NCBI GenBank assembly: GCA_945883235.1
Contig: CAMCXF010000007.1
Location: 62,001 to 126,000, forward strand
Length of the DNA: 64,000 nt
Direction: 5' to 3'
Source of the DNA: Phenylobacterium deserti
GTDB taxonomy: Bacteria; Pseudomonadota; Alphaproteobacteria; Caulobacterales; Caulobacteraceae
Shown here: positions 13,517-22,050 of the stretch, in pieces
Layout: every line of letters begins with the position of its first letter
Position numbering within the stretch: position 1 is the stretch's first letter
Program-made: the position numbers and the translations under genes
Notes under the pieces: generated by a model
What the model was told of the DNA's origin: nothing
Seen by the model: the letters and a program-made list of their open reading frames with translations, nothing else
The model's database searches: none

Positions 13517-14518
13517 ATGGCTCATATCCTGACCACCGCGGATGGCGTCGCGTTCCTGCGTACGCCGGAGTCACACTTCGCCGACCTTCCCGACTTTGCC
13601 CATCCGCCGTCGTTCCTCGATATCGACGGGTTGCGGATGCACTATCTTGATGTCGGGCCGCGCGACGGACCGGCGGCGCTGCTGATGCACGGGATGCCCA
13701 CGTGGAGCTTCCTCAATCGCGGCATCATCGCTCGACTGACCGCCGCGGGCTGGCGTTGCATTGCCGCCGACCATTTTGGTTTTGGCCGTTCCGACAAGCC
13801 GCTGGAGGATGACTGGTACTCCATCGCCAGGCATACCGCCGCCCACCGAACCCTGATCGAGCACCTGGATCTGCAGGACATTACCCTCTTCTGCCAGGAC
13901 TGGGGCGGTCCGATCGGCCTGGCCCAGGCCGCCGAGATGCCCGAGCGCTTCGCCCGTCTGGTGGTGATGAACACCTGGCTCCACCATCAGGGGTACGGCT
14001 ATTCCCCGGCGATCCACCGCTGGAACGCGGGCTGGCAGCCGGACGGCATGTTCGTCGCCAACATCCCCGAACGGCTCACCCTGGGCTGGTTCATGATGAT
14101 CTCGCTCGGTCACATGAGCGCCAAGGACATGTTCACGATCATCCAAGAGGGGATCTACCCGCCGCTCTCGCCCGAGGCTGACGCCGTGCGTCGAGGTTAT
14201 GACGCGCCATTCGAAGGGCTGGGCCGGGCCGGACACGCCGGCCCACGGCGGTTCCCGCTCAGCCTCCCATTCACCAACCCGGAAGGTGGCAATGCTATCG
14301 CACAGCAGCGCCACTTCGACACTTTGCTCAATTGGAAAAAGCCGGTTCACTTCATCTGGGGCGGCACCGACAACATCTTCACCGAAGCCTGGGGCCGCCA
14401 ATGGGCGGGACGGTTCCCGCAGGCGACGTTCGACCTGCTGCCAGATGCCGGCCATTTCCTGCAGGACACCCACGGCGACGCCATCGCCGACCTGTTCTTT
14501 GAGAGGATCGCCGGGTGA
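13517..14518 (+). CDS. Haloalkane dehalogenase-like alpha/beta-hydrolase
   Basis: An alpha/beta-hydrolase of the haloalkane dehalogenase/epoxide hydrolase group, 333 residues. The nucleophile is Asp128 followed by Trp129 in FCQDWGG, the halide-side Trp of dehalogenases, and the general base is His313 in DAGHFLQ. The oxyanion-loop motif reads HGMPTWSFLNR. The position where true dehalogenases have Glu or Asn (HGEP/HGNP) is Met60, so dehalogenase activity is uncertain. It follows the sulfatase by 25 bases and overlaps the next gene by 4 bp. It is distinct from the second dehalogenase at 15376. Confidence 0.82.
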   Translation: MAHILTTADGVAFLRTPESHFADLPDFAHPPSFLDIDGLRMHYLDVGPRDGPAALLMHGMPTWSFLNRGIIARLTAAGWRCIAADHFGFGRSDKPLEDDWYSIARHTAAHRTLIEHLDLQDITLFCQDWGGPIGLAQAAEMPERFARLVVMNTWLHHQGYGYSPAIHRWNAGWQPDGMFVANIPERLTLGWFMMISLGHMSAKDMFTIIQEGIYPPLSPEADAVRRGYDAPFEGLGRAGHAGPRRFPLSLPFTNPEGGNAIAQQRHFDTLLNWKKPVHFIWGGTDNIFTEAWGRQWAGRFPQATFDLLPDAGHFLQDTHGDAIADLFFERIAG

Positions 14519-14952
14519 GCTTCCTGCCACCTTCGACCAACGCCGAATATCGCGGCACCGGGGCCTCAGCCTGGTTCCTGACGTTTGCCGCGGTCATGAC
14601 CCTGGTTCCCGGGATGATCCACAGCTTCCTGCCCGATGGCGGCGCCGGGGTGATTGCGGGCCTCGACATGGGCGATCGTCGCGATCTGGTGATCGGCCTG
14701 TTCCGCTGGGAGGGTTCAACGCAGATCGCCATGGGCATTGCGATGCTGGTGGTTTCGCTACGATACCGGCCGTTGACGCCGCTGTTCCTGGCGCTGATCG
14801 TCGTCGAGCGCGGCCTAATGTCCCTGCACGGCTGGATCCTGTCGCCACCGATCACTGGCCATCACCCGCCCGCGCATTACGCCAGCCCGGTCACCGTCGT
14901 GCTGGCGCTGTTGTTTTTGGCCCTGTCGCTGCGCGGTCGCCGCGTCGCCTAG
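14515..14952 (+). CDS. Four-helix hypothetical membrane protein
   Basis: A 145-residue integral membrane protein with about four hydrophobic helices (around residues 20-40, 63-83, 88-105 and 122-140). I do not recognise the family. It starts at GTG, overlapping the preceding dehalogenase-like gene by 4 bp (GTGA), so it is the third gene of the sulfatase operon. Conserved-looking features are FRWEGSTQIAMGIAMLVV and a periplasmic or cytoplasmic loop SPPITGHHPPAHYASP rich in His and Pro. Function unknown. Its 3' end overlaps the convergent DUF1330 gene by 4 bp. Confidence 0.72.
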   Translation: MSFLPPSTNAEYRGTGASAWFLTFAAVMTLVPGMIHSFLPDGGAGVIAGLDMGDRRDLVIGLFRWEGSTQIAMGIAMLVVSLRYRPLTPLFLALIVVERGLMSLHGWILSPPITGHHPPAHYASPVTVVLALLFLALSLRGRRVA

Positions 14953-15365
14953 AAGCCCGCGCCAGGCTTGGTTCGGATGTTGAGTTGACCCGCCAGTCCC
15001 GCCTTACGGTGATGCTCGATGGCGTGCATCGCGGGCGACATGGCCATTTCGCGGAACGCCGCCAGCGACGGATATTCGGCCAGGGCGACCATGTCCCAGA
15101 GGTCCTCGACCTCGCCCAGTAGCAGGCCGGTGACGTCGCCGGAGTAGCGCACCTTGCCGCCCAGGCCCTCGACCAGCTTGCGCACTTCCTCGCCGTAGCG
15201 GGCATAAGCCTCAGCACCGCTGAGGTCGGGCTCGGAGCCGTCCGCGTACTCGGCCTTGGCCTTGAACTTCAGCAGGTTGACCATCACGAAGGGCCCATTC
15301 TCGGTCCCGCCGAAGAAGGCCATGGCCTGTTGCATGGGCGGAATGACGGCGTTCTCGACCTTCAT
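14949..15365 (-). CDS. DUF1330-family protein
   Basis: A 138-residue protein with a dimeric alpha-beta barrel-type DUF1330 domain. The family pattern PFVMVNLLKFKAKAEYADG, then SGAEAYARYGEEVRKLVEG and VALAEYPSLAAFREMAMSP is plain. The biochemical role of DUF1330 proteins is not established. The gene follows the haloalkane dehalogenase by 10 bases with GAGGA before its ATG, so the two form one TetR-controlled unit. That suggests a role connected with the dehalogenase substrate or product, which is inference from context only. Confidence 0.85.
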   Translation of the reverse strand: MKVENAVIPPMQQAMAFFGGTENGPFVMVNLLKFKAKAEYADGSEPDLSGAEAYARYGEEVRKLVEGLGGKVRYSGDVTGLLLGEVEDLWDMVALAEYPSLAAFREMAMSPAMHAIEHHRKAGLAGQLNIRTKPGAGF

Positions 15366-15375
15366 GAGCGTGTCC

Positions 15376-16275
15376 TCAGCTACGGGCGATCAGGGCGTCG
15401 AGGATCTCGACGATATCGTTGGGGCAGTCTTCCTGCAGGAAGTGGCCGCCGCTCAGGGTCACGTGCGGTTGGCCCTTGGCGCCTGGAATGCGCGCCTGGA
15501 TCGGAATGTCGCCGCCCTTGCTGACGGGGTCATTGTCGCTGAAGGCGGTGACGACGGGTTTGGCAAACTGCTCCAGCACCTTCCAGGCGGCGATGTTCTC
15601 GGCCACCGACCCGTGTTCGGGCGTTACCGGCACCAGGGTCGGAAACTGGCGCGCGCCCTCCTTGAAGGTCTCGTCCGGAAACGGCGCATCATAGGCGGCA
15701 ACTTCGGCCTCGGTCAGGTTCCGCGTCGTGCCCATGTTGACGATGCCGCCGATCGGCATCTGTGGAACGTTCTGGCTGAACTCCAGCCAGTTCTTGAAGC
15801 CTTCGGACAAGCCGGTTCCCACAGGCATACCCGTGTTGGCAATCACCAGTCCGGCGAACCGCTCAGGGAAGGCGGCCACCAGGCGCAACCCGATCAGACC
15901 GCCCCAGTCCTGGCAGAACAGGCGCAGATTCTTCAGGTCGAGGCCGGTGAGCCATTGGCTCATCCAGGCCACGTGACGCTCATAGGTATAGTCCGTGCGT
16001 TTCGATGGCTTGTCGGAGCGGCCGAAGCCGATCAGGTCGGGGGCGATTACCCGATGCCCTTTGGCCACAAGCCCGGCGATGATGTTGCGGTAAAGATAGG
16101 CCCACGACGGTTCACCGTGCATGACCAGCACCGGAGCGCCGCCGCGCGGCCCCTCGTCGACGTAGTGAAGCCGCATCACCGTGCCGTCCGCGTCCGTAAT
16201 GTCGAAATATTTCGGCGCATAAGGCCAGTCGACCAGACCTTCGAAGCGGTCGTCAGGTGTTCTCAGAATCTGCAC
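15376..16275 (-). CDS. Haloalkane dehalogenase (HLD-I type)
   Basis: A haloalkane dehalogenase-type hydrolase of 299 residues that would cleave carbon-halogen bonds to an alcohol plus halide. Asp123-Trp124 in CQDWGG are nucleophile and halide-binding Trp; His278 in GGHFLQ is the base. The [14 protein letters not shown] motif (Glu after HG, Trp in the loop) is the HLD-I pattern seen in DhlA-type enzymes. The length of ~300 residues is usual. It starts at GTG with AGGGG upstream. A perfect 11-bp inverted repeat lies 20 bases upstream, and a TetR gene is divergent. DUF1330 follows in the same operon. Confidence 0.88.
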
Positions 16276-16295
16276 TTGGACAGCCCCTTGGTCCT

Positions 16296-16324
16296 ATATA
16301 GTGACACTAATAATGTCACTATAT
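16296..16324. promoter_or_regulatory. 29-bp operator for the divergent TetR/dehalogenase pair
   Basis: ATATAGTGACA and TGTCACTATAT are perfect 11-bp inverted arms separated by CTAATAA. The site lies 20-48 bases upstream of the dehalogenase GTG and 60 bases upstream of the divergent TetR ATG. This is the expected place for a TetR-family repressor to block both promoters. It is clearly AT-rich against the local background. Confidence 0.8.
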
Positions 16325-16384
16325 CCCGCCGTCAAGGCGTGACAGCCCCTCGACAGTCCGGGGCGTTTCAGGCGACATGAGATC

Positions 16385-17008
16385 ATGAATCCTTCCGCGC
16401 AACCCCTGCCCGCCGAAGCCCTCGATGGTCGTCGTCGGCGCGGCCGGGACAACCGTGCGCGGATCGTGGCGGCCATGATGGAAATTGTCCGCAACGGTCA
16501 GATAGCGCCCAGCGCCGAGCAGGTGGCCGCCCAGGCCGATGTCGGGCTGCGAACGGTCTTCCGGCATTTTCAGGATATGGACAGCCTCTATCGCGAGATG
16601 TCGGTGGTTATCGAGGCACAGCTGCGCACCATCATTGAACGCCCCCTGAAGAACAGCGCCTGGCCAGAACGCATCTACGAACTGATCGGTCGCCGCGCCC
16701 TGGCTTTCGAGACCATCGCCCCTTACCGCCGTGCAGCAGATGCTTTTCGCCACCGATCAAAATTTCTGGGCGCCGACGCCGACCGGTTGGCGATCGAGCT
16801 ACGTGCGAAACTGGTGAAGGCCCTGCCGCCAGAGACGGCAGGCGATCTGCCGACACTCGAAGCACTGGACCTTCTGATGAGTTTCGAGGCCTGGTCCCGA
16901 TTGCGTCGCGAGCAGGGGCTGAGTGTAGAAAGAGCCCGTGCTGTAGTCGACATGACCGTTCGGAAGATCGTCGCTCAAGCCTCCAGTTCGATGTCCCAGT
17001 ACAGGTAG
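16385..17008 (+). CDS. TetR-family regulator of the dehalogenase operon
   Basis: A 207-residue TetR-type regulator. The N-terminal helix-turn-helix is RIVAAMMEIVRNGQIAPSAE followed by QVAAQADVGLRTVFRHFQDM. The C-terminal ligand domain is not assignable. It is divergent from the haloalkane dehalogenase with a 29-bp perfect-arm palindrome between, so it most likely represses the dehalogenase-DUF1330 operon and itself. The inducer may be a halogenated compound, but nothing in the sequence proves that. Its last 34 bp overlap the convergent HNH endonuclease gene. Confidence 0.87.
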   Translation: MNPSAQPLPAEALDGRRRRGRDNRARIVAAMMEIVRNGQIAPSAEQVAAQADVGLRTVFRHFQDMDSLYREMSVVIEAQLRTIIERPLKNSAWPERIYELIGRRALAFETIAPYRRAADAFRHRSKFLGADADRLAIELRAKLVKALPPETAGDLPTLEALDLLMSFEAWSRLRREQGLSVERARAVVDMTVRKIVAQASSSMSQYR

Positions 17009-17535
17009 TCCAGCCAGCTCTCATGCAGGTGGTGCGGCGGGAAGCGGCGGCCGCGGTTCTGGAGGTCGTGAGCGGTGGGACGGCGGGGCTTCTGGCGAGG
17101 CTGCATCTGCGCCTGCGCCGGCATCCGGCCACCCTTGGTCAGATTGCAGCGTGCGCACGCCGTGACGATGTTTTCCCAGGTTGTCCGCCCGCCCCGCGAG
17201 CGCGGGATCACGTGGTCGAAGGTCAGGTCATCGGTGGACGGGCAATACTGGCAGATGAAACCGTCTCGCAGGAAGAGGTTGAACCGTGTGAAGGCGGGCG
17301 GGCGGTCTTGTGTCACATACTGCTTCAGCGACACAACGCTGGGCAATTGCATGGCGAATGAGGGTGAGTGCACGACCTGATCGTAGGTCGACACCACGTC
17401 GACCCGGTCCAGGAACACCGCCTTGATCACGTCCTGCCAGGGCCACAGTGACAGAGGATAATAGCTGAGCGGCCGGAAATCGGCATTGAGCACGAGACAG
17501 GGCCAGCCTGACGGCGCGTGACTAACCACCTGCAT
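16975..17535 (-). CDS. HNH endonuclease family protein
   Basis: A 186-residue HNH nuclease-fold protein. The zinc/nuclease core is ICQYC (first CxxC), LTFDHVIPRSRGG (DHVIPRSRGG is the canonical HNH segment) and ENIVTACARCNLTKGG (second CxxC). The N-terminal ~75 residues (CLVLNADFRPLSYYPLSLW) are typical of a widespread chromosomal HNH group in alphaproteobacteria rather than of homing endonucleases. The biological role of that group is not established, and there is no partner methylase here. It converges on the TetR gene at 16385. Confidence 0.88.
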   Translation of the reverse strand: MQVVSHAPSGWPCLVLNADFRPLSYYPLSLWPWQDVIKAVFLDRVDVVSTYDQVVHSPSFAMQLPSVVSLKQYVTQDRPPAFTRFNLFLRDGFICQYCPSTDDLTFDHVIPRSRGGRTTWENIVTACARCNLTKGGRMPAQAQMQPRQKPRRPTAHDLQNRGRRFPPHHLHESWLDYLYWDIELEA

Positions 17536-17682
17536 GGAGACACCCGATGCAGCGGAGACAGCTGTAGAAGAGGTTCAGCGTGGTCCTGAAGACGAACACC
17601 CTCTGTATATAATTGGACAGTTTCGAAAACTATAGGCCCGATTCGGAGACAACTCTACGACGACGCGAGCCGGGTGCCTGTA

Positions 17683-17712
17683 GCCTCGCCCGGGACCATG
17701 TCCGGACGAGGC
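17683..17712. other. GC-rich stem-loop downstream of miniprotein A
   Basis: GCCTCG..CGAGGC with inner CCGG pairing forms a stem of about 12 bp with one bulge. It lies 18 bases beyond the miniprotein A stop codon on its strand. No T-run follows, so it may be a 3'-end structure rather than a classic terminator. Confidence 0.45.
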
Positions 17713-17730
17713 GCTAGCTGCGCAACATGT

Positions 17731-17832
17731 TCAGGCACCGAGGAAAGCGGTGGCACCGGCAATGGTCAGGGTAAGACCCAGGACCGCAAAGGATACGGTC
17801 AGGTCGAGGACCCGGTTCATCAGGTTGGTCAT
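17731..17832 (-). CDS. Miniprotein A: 33-residue single-span membrane protein
   Basis: A 33-residue open frame, too short for routine annotation but well supported. The ATG at 17832 is preceded by GGAGG with a 6-base spacer. The product starts MTNLMNRVLDLTVS and continues as one hydrophobic helix ending GATAFLGA. It aligns without gaps to miniprotein B (18055-18159) at about 12 of 30 positions, sharing R..D, LxL and the C-terminal AxTAxLGA. A 45-bp near-perfect palindrome lies 51 bases upstream. It probably sits in the inner membrane. Function unknown; the locus suggests control by the TetR at 18295. Confidence 0.72.
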   Translation of the reverse strand: MTNLMNRVLDLTVSFAVLGLTLTIAGATAFLGA

Positions 17833-17882
17833 TTTCAGCCTCCTTTTTGCTTTGGGACCGGTTGATCCGGCACCCCGCGCCC

Positions 17883-17927
17883 ATCTGGACAATGTTTAGA
17901 TAGCACTTATCTAATCATCGTCCAGAT
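17883..17927. promoter_or_regulatory. 45-bp near-perfect palindrome upstream of miniprotein A
   Basis: Two 20-base arms (17883-17902 and 17908-17927) match as inverted copies at 18 of 20 positions around the 5-base centre GCACT. The core TTAGATA-GCACT-TATCTAA is perfect. A related element, TCAGATAGGCACTGATCTGA, lies at 18224-18243 beside the TetR gene, so both probably bind the same TetR protein. Confidence 0.75.
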
Positions 17928-17989
17928 AGTAATTCTAATGGTACTGATATACAATTTTGCATGCCAACAGATGTTGCAGCGCGCGCACG

Positions 17990-18014
17990 AAAAAGGGGCC
18001 CGCATGGGGCCCCT
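17990..18014 (-). terminator. Rho-independent terminator of miniprotein B
   Basis: On the minus strand AGGGGCCC-CATGC-GGGCCCCT forms a perfect 8-bp GC-rich stem with a 5-base loop, followed by a run of five T. It lies 41 bases after the miniprotein B stop codon and supports that gene as a real short transcript. Confidence 0.8.
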
Positions 18015-18054
18015 CCTCGAAGGTTTCGATAATTAGATAGCCAGGCGGAGAGGC

Positions 18055-18159
18055 CTAGGCTCCGAGAGCCGCCGTGCCGAAGGCCGCAACAAGACCGAGC
18101 GACAGGAGGAACACAGGGACGAAACGATCGAAGAACCGTTCGAACTTCACGAGAGACAT
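18055..18159 (-). CDS. Miniprotein B: 34-residue single-span membrane protein
   Basis: A 34-residue open frame with its own terminator (17990-18014) and an operator-like palindrome upstream (18224-18243). The product begins MSLVKFERFFDRFVPVF and ends in a hydrophobic helix with LGLVAAFGTAALGA. The amphipathic, charged N-terminus (K5, E7, R8, D11, R12) before one membrane span resembles known small regulatory membrane peptides, but no family is recognised. It resembles miniprotein A closely. It is divergent from the TetR gene at 18295. The ribosome site is weak (GGAAAG). Confidence 0.7.
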   Translation of the reverse strand: MSLVKFERFFDRFVPVFLLSLGLVAAFGTAALGA

Positions 18160-18223
18160 GACACACACTTTCCAGTTTCAGGGCCCCTCATCGATGTGAG
18201 GGTGTTTCTAATTTGAACGATGT

Positions 18224-18243
18224 TCAGATAGGCACTGATCTGA
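18224..18243. promoter_or_regulatory. Operator-like palindrome between miniprotein B and tetR
   Basis: TCAGAT-AGGCACTG-ATCTGA is an inverted repeat in the 135-bp divergent region. Together with its flanks (ATGT before, GACGTC after) it matches the sequence of the 45-bp palindrome at 17883-17927, differing mainly by one inserted base. This indicates a shared regulator. Confidence 0.7.
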
Positions 18244-18294
18244 GCGACGTCAAGATCGGTGTACAGCGCGCGAATATGAACTTATGGTAATGAG

Positions 18295-18924
18295 ATGAGC
18301 GAAGCCAAAACCATTGGACCCCGCCCCTACCATCACGGCGACCTGACGCGAGCCCTGGTCGACGCAGCGCGGAGACTGCTGGAAGCCGAGGGTCCCAGCG
18401 CGCTATCGCTACGCGCGGTGGCCCGGGAAGCCGGGGTCAGCCCGGCCGCCCCCTATCACCACTTCAAGGACAAGGCTGAACTGCTGGACGCGGTCGCCAA
18501 TGTGGGTTGGGATCTGCTGGGCGTTCAAATGTCGACAGCCAAGGCCGCGACCACCGGCATGCAGCAATTGACGGCGCTGGGCATCGCCTATGTCTGCTTC
18601 GCCCGCGAAAACCCGGCCCTCTACCATGTGATGTACGACGCGGCCCGCGAGAAGGACGAGATGCCCGAGGGTGTGCAGGGGAACAAGGACAGCGCCTACT
18701 GCATGGTGCGCGACACCATGATTGAAAACGGTGCAGACCCCTCTCAGGACACGCATCTGGAACTGGCCGGCGTGGCCGCCTGGTGCGGTGCGCACGGCTT
18801 GGCCGAGATGGCCAGCTTCAAACAGTTCGATCACCTCAAGGAACAGCTTGGAGGCGAGGTTCCTTTCTTCGAGGCGGTTTTGAGCCATATGGGCCTGTTC
18901 CCCAAGCCGCACCACGACTGCTAG
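18295..18924 (+). CDS. TetR-family regulator, likely controlling miniproteins A and B
   Basis: A 209-residue TetR-type repressor. The DNA-binding domain shows PYHHGDLTRALVDAARRLLE, then LSLRAVAREAGVSPAAPYHH and FKDKAELLDAVA, the standard helix-turn-helix with recognition helix. The C-terminal ligand domain has several His and Cys (WCGAHGLAEMA, and a final HHDC), perhaps relevant to its ligand. It is divergent from miniprotein B with a palindrome between, and a stronger related palindrome precedes miniprotein A. It probably represses both genes and itself. Ligand unknown. Confidence 0.88.
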   Translation: MSEAKTIGPRPYHHGDLTRALVDAARRLLEAEGPSALSLRAVAREAGVSPAAPYHHFKDKAELLDAVANVGWDLLGVQMSTAKAATTGMQQLTALGIAYVCFARENPALYHVMYDAAREKDEMPEGVQGNKDSAYCMVRDTMIENGADPSQDTHLELAGVAAWCGAHGLAEMASFKQFDHLKEQLGGEVPFFEAVLSHMGLFPKPHHDC

Positions 18925-18934
18925 ACCTGCCGGG

Positions 18935-19759
18935 GTGTTCGTCACCCGCTTCGCCCCGTCTCCAACCGGATATCTCCACCGCGGCCATGCGCTGTCGGCC
19001 CTGACCGCCCACGCCGCCGCGCGCCAGGCTAAGGGACGGTTTCTCCTGCGCATTGAAAATATTGACGCCACGCGCTGCCGCCCGGCGTTCGAAATGGCGT
19101 TGCTGGAGGACCTGGCGTGGTTGGGCCTGGAGTGGGAGACACCTGTTCGCCGACAGGCTGATCACTTCGATGACTACCGCGCCGCCCTGTCACATTTGGT
19201 GGGTGATGGGCTGCTCTACCGCTGCTTCCGCACGCGCAAGGAGGTAGCGCTGGCCAGCGCGTCCGCCCCGCATGGGGATATGGAGGTATTCACTGGCGGC
19301 CCGCTTTCCGCCGCCGACGAGGCTCAGCGTCTGACTGCCGGCGAGCCCTTCGCCTGGCGCCTATCCCTGGGTGCGGCTGAGAGCAAGCTGGGTGGGTTCA
19401 GTAGCCTGACGTTCACAGACGATGCCATTCCGGTGACTGCCCGGCCGGATCTTGGCGGCGACGTTGTGCTGGCCCGAAAAGACGTGGGCGTCGCCTACCA
19501 TCTGGCGGTCGTGGTCGATGACGCGCTGCAGGGGATTACCCACGTTGTGCGCGGCGACGACCTGAGGGACGCAACCCACGTTCAGCGTCTGTTGCAGGCG
19601 CTGCTGGGCCTTCCGACCCCGAGCTATCGCCATCACTCCCTGTTGCTCGACGCCGGGGGGTGCAGGCTGGCCAAGCGCAACAACGCCGAAACCCTGCGAA
19701 GCTTGCGCGAACGCGGTATGAGCGCTGTCGATCTTCGCGGGGAGCTGGGGTTTGACTGA
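18935..19759 (+). CDS. gluQ: Glutamyl-Q tRNA(Asp) synthetase
   Basis: GluQ-RS, a truncated glutamyl-tRNA synthetase paralogue (274 residues) that attaches glutamate to queuosine in tRNA-Asp. It keeps the catalytic core with TRFAPSPTGYLHRGHALSAL (HIGH-like) and the KMSKS-like RLAKRNN near the C-terminus. It lacks the anticodon-binding domain, which separates it from GltX. The start is GTG, 10 bases after the TetR stop. It overlaps the EamA transporter by 8 bp. Confidence 0.9.
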   Translation: MFVTRFAPSPTGYLHRGHALSALTAHAAARQAKGRFLLRIENIDATRCRPAFEMALLEDLAWLGLEWETPVRRQADHFDDYRAALSHLVGDGLLYRCFRTRKEVALASASAPHGDMEVFTGGPLSAADEAQRLTAGEPFAWRLSLGAAESKLGGFSSLTFTDDAIPVTARPDLGGDVVLARKDVGVAYHLAVVVDDALQGITHVVRGDDLRDATHVQRLLQALLGLPTPSYRHHSLLLDAGGCRLAKRNNAETLRSLRERGMSAVDLRGELGFD

Positions 19760-20642
19760 GGGGGTTGTCGCGCCGCAAACGAGGACAGACTGGCGCGCGG
19801 TAGGGGTGCTGCTGTTCGGTGCCTGCGTCATTGGGCTGTCGCCGATCCTGGTGCGATTGACCGAGGCCGGCCCCGCCGCAGCCGGCTTCTGGAGGCTGGC
19901 TTTAGCCCTGCCGCTGCTGGCGATGCTGACGGTGCGCACGACCAGGCGGATTGGCCGACCCTCGCGGATCGCCGTTTGGGCTGGCGTGTTCTTCGCCCTG
20001 GATCTCGGCTTCTGGCACTATGCCGTGCACTACACCTCCGTCACCAACGCCACCGTGCTGTCCAACCTGACCCCTGTGGTGGTGACAGCCTTCGCCTGGA
20101 TATTCCTGAAGCAAAGACCGGCCAGTCTGTTCCTCGTGGCGGTCGCCGCCGCCACGGGCGGTGCCTGGTTGATGGCCTTCGAAAAAGGTGGTGGTGCCTT
20201 GGTCAACCAACCACTTGGCGACGCGCTCTCGGTGCTGACGGCGCTCTGGTACTCGGCCTACTTCCTGTGCATGGCGCAGGGCCGCAAAACCGAAGGGGCC
20301 AGCCAGCTGATGTTCTGGGTCAGCATCATCGGCGCGCCGCTGCTGTTGATCGCAGCAATCGTCGCAGGCGAGCCGATCCTGCCATCCAGTGTGTTGGGCT
20401 GGTCCGCTCTGGCGGGGCTGGGCCTGATGCATGTTGCCGGACAAGGTTCTCTGGCCTGGGCCATGGGACGGCTGCCGACATCGACAGCGTCGGTCGTGGT
20501 GCTGGTCCAGCCGGTCGTGGCGGCCTGGCTCGGCTGGCTGTTGTTTTTCGAGCCCATTGGTCGCTTGCAGGCTGTTGGCGCGGTCGTGACCCTTCTCGGT
20601 GTGATCCTGGCACAATGGGCATCGCGGCCTAAGCCGGAGTGA
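19752..20642 (+). CDS. EamA-family (DMT) transporter
   Basis: A ten-helix drug/metabolite-type transporter of 296 residues with two EamA repeats. The first covers about residues 20-145 (e.g. VRLTEAGPAAAGFWRLALAL, YTSVTNATVLSNLTPVVVT). The second covers about 160-290 (GLGLMHVAGQGSLAWAMGRL, STASVVVLVQPVVAAWLGW). Substrate unknown; relatives export amino acids or metabolites. TTG at 19752 overlaps gluQ and is the only start that keeps the first helix. It converges on selO with a 14-bp overlap. Confidence 0.88.
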   Translation: MTEGVVAPQTRTDWRAVGVLLFGACVIGLSPILVRLTEAGPAAAGFWRLALALPLLAMLTVRTTRRIGRPSRIAVWAGVFFALDLGFWHYAVHYTSVTNATVLSNLTPVVVTAFAWIFLKQRPASLFLVAVAAATGGAWLMAFEKGGGALVNQPLGDALSVLTALWYSAYFLCMAQGRKTEGASQLMFWVSIIGAPLLLIAAIVAGEPILPSSVLGWSALAGLGLMHVAGQGSLAWAMGRLPTSTASVVVLVQPVVAAWLGWLLFFEPIGRLQAVGAVVTLLGVILAQWASRPKPE

Positions 20643-22050
20643 GACCCCACGCCAGCCGAGCGGCCTCGATACGATCCAGTTTCTGGTTGAAGACCGACCA
20701 GTCATCGGTCCCGGCGATCGGTGCCCAGATCGATTCGATTTCGTCGATCAGCAGTTCTTCCGGCTCGGTGCGGGAGAAGTAGGGGTGCGTCAATCGCTCT
20801 GATCGTACAGGGCGGTGAACGGCGAGGCACTGGCGGAACGTGACAAACGGCTGGGTCGCATAGTGGCTTGCCCGGGGTCCCGCCAGGGCTCGGTCCTCCC
20901 GGCCGCAAAACCAGTCGAAGAAGAAGGGTTCCCATCGCAGCATCTCACCGCCATCAGCCATGGCCTGGAATGCGGCCTGGACCAGGATCGCATCCGCTTC
21001 ATCGCCTTCCGAGCCAACGCCCAGCCGCGCCAGCATGGCGGCTATCAGTTCTCGCCGATATGCCGGTCCAAATCCGTTCAGGGCCTCGACCAGTGTGTCG
21101 CTGTTGCCGACCAGCGAGAAACACCCGGCCAGCTGTTGCAGGTTCCAGTTTACCGCCTCGGGCTGACGACCGAAGCTGTAGAGCCCCTGGTGGTCAAAGT
21201 AGGCGGCGGTGAAGTTGGGGTCGGAGTGCGGAAGGAACCGGTAGGGCCCGTAGTCGAAACTCTCACCCGTCAGGTTCATGTTGTCGGTATTGAGCACGCC
21301 ATGGACGAACCCGGCCGTCATCCAGCCGGCGGTCATCGTCGCCACACGACCAACGACCGCTTCCAGCAAAGCGGCGGGCCGGTCATTCGCCCCCTCGAGT
21401 TCCGGGTAGTAGTTGGCGATCACATGGTCGATCAGCGCGCTGACCCGCTCCGCGCTTTCGAAAAACGCGTGCCGCTGGAAGCTGCCGAAGCGGATGTGGC
21501 TGTGCGATAGGCGCACCAGAACGCCCGCGCGCGTCGGGCTGGGCTCATCACCACGCTCAAGCGCCTCACCGGTCTCGATCAGAGAGAGCGACCGGGAGGT
21601 CGGCACGCCCAGGGCCTCCAGCATCGCTGTGGCCAGCACTTCACGCATCCCCCCCTTCAGCGTCAGCCGACCGTCGCCCCCGCGGGACCACGGTGTCTGA
21701 CCCGACCCCTTGGTGCCCAGATCCAGCAGGCGGCCGGTCCCAGCCTCGCGAAGTTGGGCGAACAGGAACCCGCGCCCATCGCCCAGGTCGGAGTTGTAAG
21801 TGCGAAACTGGTGACCGTGATAACGCTGGGCGAGGGGCGGATCGATGTTGCCCGGCAAGGGCTGGAAGCGGCCAAAGTGGGCGACCCATTCGGCGTCGCT
21901 CAGCGTCTCCAGGCCGACGGTGGCCGCCGCACGGTCATTGCGAAACCGCAGGATCGTCTGCGGAAAGTCAGCCGCCGCCACAGGATCGCCGAATTCAGGC
22001 CCCAGGGTCGGAAACTGCGGATCAGGTCGATAGATGGCGGAAGGTGGCAT
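20629..22050 (-). CDS. selO: Protein adenylyltransferase SelO
   Basis: SelO/YdiU, a pseudokinase-fold enzyme that transfers AMP to Ser, Thr or Tyr of target proteins, 473 residues. Family features include the Gly-rich DLGTKGSGQTPWSRGGDGRL, the nucleotide-binding LKGGMREVLATAMLEALGVP, and the catalytic FVHGVLNTDNMNLTG. No Sec/Cys tail is present; bacterial forms without it are common. The ATG at 22050 starts MPPSAIYRPD four bases after the ilvE stop, so the two are probably one operon. A longer frame would overlap ilvE and was rejected. Confidence 0.92.
   Translation of the reverse strand: MPPSAIYRPDPQFPTLGPEFGDPVAAADFPQTILRFRNDRAAATVGLETLSDAEWVAHFGRFQPLPGNIDPPLAQRYHGHQFRTYNSDLGDGRGFLFAQLREAGTGRLLDLGTKGSGQTPWSRGGDGRLTLKGGMREVLATAMLEALGVPTSRSLSLIETGEALERGDEPSPTRAGVLVRLSHSHIRFGSFQRHAFFESAERVSALIDHVIANYYPELEGANDRPAALLEAVVGRVATMTAGWMTAGFVHGVLNTDNMNLTGESFDYGPYRFLPHSDPNFTAAYFDHQGLYSFGRQPEAVNWNLQQLAGCFSLVGNSDTLVEALNGFGPAYRRELIAAMLARLGVGSEGDEADAILVQAAFQAMADGGEMLRWEPFFFDWFCGREDRALAGPRASHYATQPFVTFRQCLAVHRPVRSERLTHPYFSRTEPEELLIDEIESIWAPIAGTDDWSVFNQKLDRIEAARLAWGLTPA

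Follow-up and report, generated by a model that had tools for sequence, protein, structure and literature searches.

Among the short membrane proteins described in bacteria, several play regulatory or accessory roles: AcrZ is a small accessory peptide of AcrAB-TolC, while MgtR and SidA are peptides that regulate another inner-membrane protein, and TisB is a single-transmembrane SOS peptide. At the RNA level, the α-proteobacteria also produce small RNAs with C-rich loops of the CCUCCUCCC type. DinQ is an SOS-regulated toxic single-span peptide. One report counts 94 CDSs of under 50 aa in C. crescentus and regards their role as largely unexplored (PMC4117421).

The locus considered here lies in a 64-kb stretch of DNA, referred to throughout as the window, and consists of a TetR/AcrR-family gene (tetR) and two very short genes, miniA and miniB. 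It looks like an apparently undescribed switch common to Phenylobacterium and Caulobacter, in which one repressor would control a family of predicted single-helix membrane proteins of approximately 34 residues. No description of the locus was found in the literature searched, which lay mostly outside subscription papers and included the accessible parts of PMC4117421, PMC12559287, and PMC8277102.

Comparison with the described systems reveals both similarities and differences. Local TetR/AcrR repressors carrying the TetR_C_33 domain (PF13305) share the domain composition, the divergent layout and the presence of palindromes over a putative promoter; here, however, the neighboring target is a micropeptide rather than an enzyme or transporter, and the operator recurs before unlinked copies of that micropeptide. 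Like AcrZ, the mini proteins are short, apparently single-span membrane peptides that may be co-regulated with a tripartite pump, but this pump is of the Emr/MFS type, is unlinked, and carries a strict form of the operator in only 4 of 101 genomes of the genus. The resemblance to EmrAB-type tripartite MFS operons lies in a NodT-EmrA-EmrB arrangement in one genome (G074), where an operator-like site precedes the first gene by about 100 nt; here, however, the gene of the candidate regulator is not linked to the pump and has micropeptide genes as its neighbors. As with DinQ and TisB, single-span peptides would be controlled by a repressor; unlike those peptides, the mini genes have operators of TetR rather than LexA type, occur as multiple dispersed copies, and encode a conserved charged motif. 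Finally, the miniB leader resembles the CCUCCUCCC-type small RNAs in forming a hairpin with a conserved C-rich loop, but the loop is CUCCCC, is located in the 5' leader of a coding transcript, and is without an Rfam match.

The tetR, miniA and miniB genes

The genes of the locus, and the terminator assigned to miniB, are as follows.

17731..17832, minus strand: miniA, encoding a 33-aa paralogue of miniB, MTNLMNRVLDLTVSFAVLGLTLTIAGATAFLGA (ORF list, relatives, pN/pS, homology)
17990..18013, minus strand: putative intrinsic terminator of miniB, a GC stem followed by TTTTT (read from the sequence; not returned by the consensus scan)
18055..18159, minus strand: miniB, encoding a 34-aa predicted single-helix peptide, MSLVKFERFFDRFVPVFLLSLGLVAAFGTAALGA (ORF list, relatives, pN/pS, AlphaFold)
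18295..18924, plus strand: tetR, encoding a predicted TetR/AcrR-family repressor of 209 aa (ORF list; TetR_N and TetR_C_33)

An earlier note on this DNA had drawn much of this layout from the sequence, and its account of the genes held up: two minus-strand open reading frames encode peptides of 33 and 34 residues, tetR, with its TetR_N and TetR_C_33 domains, is divergent from both, AAGGAGG stands 6 nt ahead of the miniA ATG, and miniB is followed by GGGGCCCCATGCGGGCCCC-TTTTT. The note's estimate of about 12 matches in 30 aligned positions is likewise in agreement with an alignment of the two families over 30 columns at 40% identity, and the miniA and miniB families are homologous (hhalign probability 95.7, E 1e-8). 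Profile searches place miniB relatives in 96 of 101 genomes of the genus (E<=0.01) and miniA matches in 65 of 101, though some of the latter are miniB genes, since the homology of the two families allows the miniA model to catch both.

Equal change at synonymous and nonsynonymous sites had been named as an outcome that would speak against these genes. When the comparison was run, the opposite pattern was obtained. Differences at codon positions 1, 2, and 3 number 58, 48, and 173 in miniB (19 of 25 independent pairs usable) and 46, 25, and 74 in miniA (9 of 13 usable); pN/pS is 0.26 for miniB and 0.48 for miniA, whereas the two remaining forward frames give 1.7 and 2.4 for miniB and 1.2 and 2.3 for miniA. 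The independent pairs were chosen by TetR identity and pairs of unequal length were left out, as were 8 of 76 miniB loci, namely one at which the wrong ORF had been picked (L179) and seven at which an ATG further upstream in the same frame ('MCVM') had been taken. For the antisense frame with the same wobble positions, the values are 0.32 (miniB) and 0.72 (miniA), as symmetry predicts; they are not independent proof of the strand on which the mini genes lie. On these substitution patterns, miniA and miniB are judged to be real genes under codon-level purifying selection, and they display the combination of such selection with conservation that marks a functional short-protein gene.

AlphaFold predicts a single helix spanning residues 3-33 of miniB (mean pLDDT 93.7), and the hydrophobicity of both peptides suggests a membrane location. 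No variation was seen at D11 or R12 among 34 miniB sequences, and E7, R8, P15, L21, and A26 are nearly invariant; a conserved E-R-x-x-D-R motif flanks the helix, and small residues are found at the helix end. Neither peptide matches a Pfam or NCBIfam family at E<=1e-3, a search of PDB sequences with the miniB profile returned no match at E<=1, and a tRNA scan of positions 15000-22000 found none. Relaxing the Pfam threshold to E<=0.1 gave two of 35 miniB members one marginal DUF match each (E 0.043 and 0.051), matches that were set aside as noise.

The tetR product matches PF00440 (E 7e-16) and PF13305 (E 1e-11) in Pfam, and its AlphaFold model is helical, with 3on2 as the best PDB match (TM 0.71-0.72). 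Because 3on2, the closest solved TetR, is without stated function or ligand, the class of inducer is a guess. The helix-turn-helix region is nearly invariant in an alignment of 28 members, which fits a fixed operator, and the closest tetR sequences among named records belong mostly to Phenylobacterium, Caulobacter or unclassified relatives. The plus-strand neighbor downstream of tetR is a GluQRS-type tRNA synthetase gene. The window contains a second tetR at 16385-17008, beside two hydrolase ORFs of opposite orientation and a DUF1330 gene (13517-16275); of the two ORFs, 15376-16275 matches Abhydrolase_1 while 13517-14518 was called a hydrolase by eye, and the DUF1330 gene lies between them.

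Conservation of the peptides and operators beside orthologous tetR genes, which the earlier note had set as a test, is borne out by the family genomes. Among 299 family genomes, 175 contain both tetR and miniB, 6 tetR only, 1 miniB only, and 117 neither, and none of the 75 usable tetR-miniB regions lacks operators. The search for tetR (E<=1e-40) found a relative in 181 of the 299, with one match each, and that for miniB (E<=1e-3) in 176. The sole genome with miniB only is a fragmented assembly, and both of the tetR-only genomes inspected hold mini genes and operators, the mini genes being diverged in one (G092) and represented by miniA only in the other (G114). Outside the family, an order-wide search of 398 genomes gave only weak partial matches. 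At the level of individual loci, a miniB candidate was obtained at 76 of 81 (80 named loci and the window), one of which had been picked wrongly (L179, where the right ORF is visible). Two mini genes beside tetR, as the earlier note described, are indeed present in the window, but the Caulobacter loci inspected have a single one. The proposal of one repressor governing two micropeptides and itself stands insofar as these genes are conserved together and share operators, and falls in limiting the set to two peptides.

Operator units at the locus

Alignment of the intergenic regions identified the conserved operator unit as a tandemly repeated 19-bp palindrome, ATCTnnRCRnYGYnnAGAT. In the window, the units and the putative miniB promoter are placed as follows.

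17883..17901, no strand: operator unit A1, ATCTGGACAATGTTTAGAT, upstream of miniA; exact match to ATCTNNNCRNYGNNNAGAT
17909..17927, no strand: operator unit A2, ATCTAATCATCGTCCAGAT, 26 bp from A1; exact match
18211..18229, no strand: operator unit B1, ATTTGAACGATGTTCAGAT; one mismatch
18225..18230, minus strand: putative miniB -10, TATCTG, 17 nt from the -35 and overlapping unit B1 (sequence, alignment)
18238..18256, no strand: operator unit B2, ATCTGAGCGACGTCAAGAT, holding the putative miniB -35 of the minus strand; exact match (orthologue alignment)
18248..18253, minus strand: putative miniB -35 hexamer, TTGACG, inside unit B2 (sequence; conserved in alignment)

These units replace the palindromes that had been proposed at 17883-17927 and 18224-18243, which were mis-drawn as the conserved element. 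The AGAT...ATCT palindrome drawn there was rejected as the operator: it is the junction of adjacent units, and its spacing and sequence vary between species while the 19-bp units are constant. An exact unit is found in every one of the 75 usable tetR-miniB regions, and when one mismatch is allowed each region has two or more units, spaced mostly 26-27 or 19-21 bp apart. A script located 38 second mini genes, of which one (L114) is B-type and the other 37 are A-type; 36 have an exact unit within 150 nt, 37 a unit with at most one mismatch, and 35 two such units.

With a putative -35 in one unit and a putative -10 in the next, the arrangement at miniB fits repression, although a generic consensus promoter scan did not report this promoter. 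Only three exact operator matches are present in the entire window, all of them at this locus, together with two one-mismatch matches elsewhere; the matches at the locus are thus more than would be expected by chance. In the genome as a whole, a one-mismatch scan yielded 82 matches against 7 for a reversed-pattern control, and the matches listed were mostly not at mini genes. As the reversed pattern contains TAGA, which is probably rare in such genomes, this control understates the background, and the argument for the operator is therefore one of location. TetR paralogues could share the operator.

Dispersed miniB cassettes and efflux promoters

Of the five miniB copies in the genome containing the window, four lie on other contigs; another genome has up to nine miniB matches, some partial at contig ends. 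An exact operator unit precedes all 24 of the unlinked copies tabulated, a set that comprises the four of this genome and 20 from 13 other genomes, hand-picked rather than random. In the 20 copies from other genomes, the unit lies 86-98 nt ahead of the start used. A second unit (at most one mismatch) is present in 12 dispersed copies, always 25 bp from the other, GGTGTGTGTC is found directly ahead of the start in 15 of 24, and a perfect stem of at least 5 pairs followed by TTTTT after the stop in 20 of 24. One further copy (L243) stands outside this table; its contig ends 83 nt upstream, and a one-mismatch unit is located at -68.

In total, 11 exact operator sites occur in the genome, seven at mini genes, one at the end of contig C41 in a fragment of a cassette, and three (on C11, C29, and C64) within long ORFs, on which ground these last were rejected as targets. 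The fragment on C41 (near 29249) is a cassette promoter/operator segment that runs into the 3' end of an ORF; its upstream part matches the copy on C54, and it could reflect either a true insertion or a chimeric assembly. In two other genomes (G062 and G009), about 60 bases or fewer separate several mini matches from a contig end, which suggests that near-identical repeats broke the assemblies.

The dispersed cassettes also share an upstream element, TGCGAAAACGCAT...TGTGAAATCGCTG, that was not seen in the tetR-linked regions aligned. The element has been read as TGCGnAAACGCAT, with TGTGAAATCGCTG following about 20 bp later, approximately 35 bp upstream of the cassette operators (L035-L038, L242-L261). 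Its presence suggests a second regulator, possibly an activator site. By eye, dispersed mini genes in three genomes (L248, L253, L254) lie near an ORF for a glycine-zipper-like membrane protein, and two of these (L253, L254) have a further TetR-like ORF close by.

An origin of the cassettes in mobile elements was considered and rejected. No tetR relative at E<=1e-40 was found in 72,556 plasmid records, and in five viral contigs that match a cassette operator, no mini gene was present in the 330 nt inspected, which lay on one side of the match. Moreover, several dispersed cassettes share downstream flanks between genomes, as judged by eye, and so look inherited in place rather than freely mobile.

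Beyond the mini genes, a strict form of the operator, ATCTTGACRNYGYNNAGAT, occurs at 72 sites in 65 of 101 genomes of the genus, with no site for the reversed control. Coordinate comparison assigns 68 of the 72 to the tetR/mini locus, the assignment in G097 resting solely on how far the site lies from miniA. The remaining four sites (in G074, G014, G006, and G031) precede an efflux operon or abut one truncated by a contig end. In G074, G006, and G031 the site is 102-113 nt ahead of the start of an outer-membrane lipoprotein gene, which in G074 and G006 is followed by EmrA- and EmrB-type sequence, the EmrA-type frame of G006 being short and apparently interrupted. The G031 contig ends inside the outer-membrane gene, the N-terminus of which is identical to that of G074 at 45 of 77 residues, while the G014 contig ends before the gene, in an upstream region common to G074 and G006. 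The four sites represent two genomic contexts, three genomes sharing one. The earlier note's mention of an efflux-modulating switch, which was a guess, gains indirect support from these operator-like sites beside an Emr-type operon in 4 of 101 genomes of the genus. Among the proteins of G074 (L241), NodT (TIGR01845) and EmrB/DHA2 (TIGR00711) score above the NCBIfam cut-offs and EmrA (TIGR00998) just below (340.8 vs. 390.8), such that a tripartite Emr-type operon is recognized by its domains at this one of the four loci and by motifs or in part at the other three. At the efflux promoters, as at that of miniB, the hexamer TTGACG lies inside the operator. In G031 (L240, on C56), the outer-membrane efflux gene has another TetR-type gene divergent from it, and the efflux promoter there may have its own local regulator.

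Scanning of nine Caulobacter-type genomes for operators, in which three off-locus sites were inspected, revealed no efflux target, indicating that a link to the pump is not needed for the system to persist. A site recurrent in these genomes, ATCTTGGCGCCGTTTAGAT, lies inside a reading frame in both cases inspected (L220, L221) and is for this reason treated as chance. In a single Caulobacter-type case (L222, around 1466), an operator-like site stands before a short secreted-type ORF with a signal-peptide-like start and Cys residues.

Candidate mechanism and rival readings

Judged from these comparative data, a regulon joining one repressor to the micropeptides is likely. A single autoregulated TetR-type repressor would hold this regulon of single-span membrane peptides, its dimer binding the tandem 19-bp palindromes at distances of mostly 25-27 or 19-21 bp; the bound units would overlap the putative miniB -35 and -10 and also stand ahead of tetR and miniA. 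The same repressor would act at the dispersed miniB cassettes, each with its own promoter region, a leader that forms a hairpin and, in most cases, a terminator; some species would have a further operator for it ahead of the NodT-EmrA-EmrB efflux operon. The repressor would be freed by a small molecule of hydrophobic character, probably a toxic amphiphile or aromatic compound, upon which helices of about 34 residues would be made and insert into the inner membrane, there to modulate an envelope transporter (most likely the Emr-type pump, in the manner of AcrZ and AcrB) or the membrane itself. This pump-accessory or envelope-modulating role is a working hypothesis with a little under an even chance of being right, and the explanation as a whole, in which an autoregulated TetR repressor and a micropeptide regulon serve such a role, is put forward just as tentatively. 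More doubtful is an extended version in which one repressor commands dispersed, interchangeable cassettes (up to approximately nine per genome, each composed of the operator, the second upstream element, a covarying CUCCCC-loop leader, a short ORF and mostly a terminator) together with the Emr-type pump, such that one signal would flood the inner membrane with accessory helices and the transcripts may also be regulatory RNAs.

The leader of miniB bears on a different reading, in which the main product is a regulatory RNA.

18185..18202, minus strand: hairpin in the miniB 5'-UTR, CCCTCA-CATCGA-TGAGGG (leader comparison)

Here the CUCCCC loop would pair with G-rich ribosome-binding sites and the peptide would be secondary, as in a dual-function RNA. 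CTCCCC is present in 69 of 99 leaders of relatives, the transcript is compact and has a terminator, and in 39 distinct 20-mers centered on CTCCCC the stem covaries: 7 of 7 pairs are changed on both sides, with 35 covarying cells, compared with 11.1 +/- 2.9 after shuffling (0 of 500 reach 35) and at most 5 in slid controls. Since the leader sequences are related and anchored on the loop, these figures support the hairpin and are not to be read as a measured probability. Against an RNA as main product, 30 of 99 leaders lack CTCCCC, the window copy keeps the stem but has CATCGA as its loop, and the leader of C. vibrioides forms a different hairpin. In addition, the full-length window transcript shows no significant folding (z -0.93), an Rfam search of 17500-18400 returned, at E up to 1, two matches that fall far short of their gathering scores, and the codon constraint on the mini genes is strong. 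The RNA reading is therefore improbable.

Two further possibilities, the main rivals of the pump-accessory or envelope-modulating role, retain the peptide as the active product. The micropeptides may be membrane-active effectors resembling TisB and DinQ, lowering membrane potential or slowing growth so as to protect the cell under stress, with additional copies raising the dose; a single hydrophobic helix, tandem operators over the promoter, the expansion in copy number, and the precedent of DinQ all accord with such a role. The charged residues E7, R8, D11, and R12 beside the helix are, however, invariant or nearly so, and together with long-term purifying selection they point to a specific partner, leaving the effector reading unlikely. 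Alternatively, the peptides may specifically regulate another inner-membrane protein, such as a protease, a respiratory enzyme or a division protein, in a manner unrelated to efflux. The conserved E-R-x-x-D-R and the small residues at the helix end would suit this function, as would the presence of the system in Caulobacter-type genomes without an efflux target seen among the sites, which were inspected in part, and one report mentions a small protein of C. crescentus by which division is delayed upon DNA damage (PMC4117421). Yet the only recurrent off-locus target of the strict operator in the genus is the efflux operon, and this reading, too, is considered unlikely, if slightly more so. Short ORFs and AT-rich palindromes are common, and the mini genes are without a database family, as would be the case if chance ORFs and chance palindromes lay beside an ordinary tetR; conservation, co-occurrence, the codon-position test, the operators, and the homology of miniA and miniB refute this reading, which retains almost no probability.

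For the preferred reading of a TetR-controlled micropeptide regulon, the implications extend beyond a single locus. The role of many short bacterial proteins is an open question, and here a micropeptide family absent from Pfam and NCBIfam can be given a probable regulator, together with an operator and a genomic definition that is conserved. The operator found at an efflux operon in some species provides a concrete hypothesis for the role of single-span peptides, and a TetR regulon in which most members are paralogous membrane micropeptides encoded at scattered sites would be unusual in its design. As the genera with the system include the model Caulobacter vibrioides, its function is testable at once.
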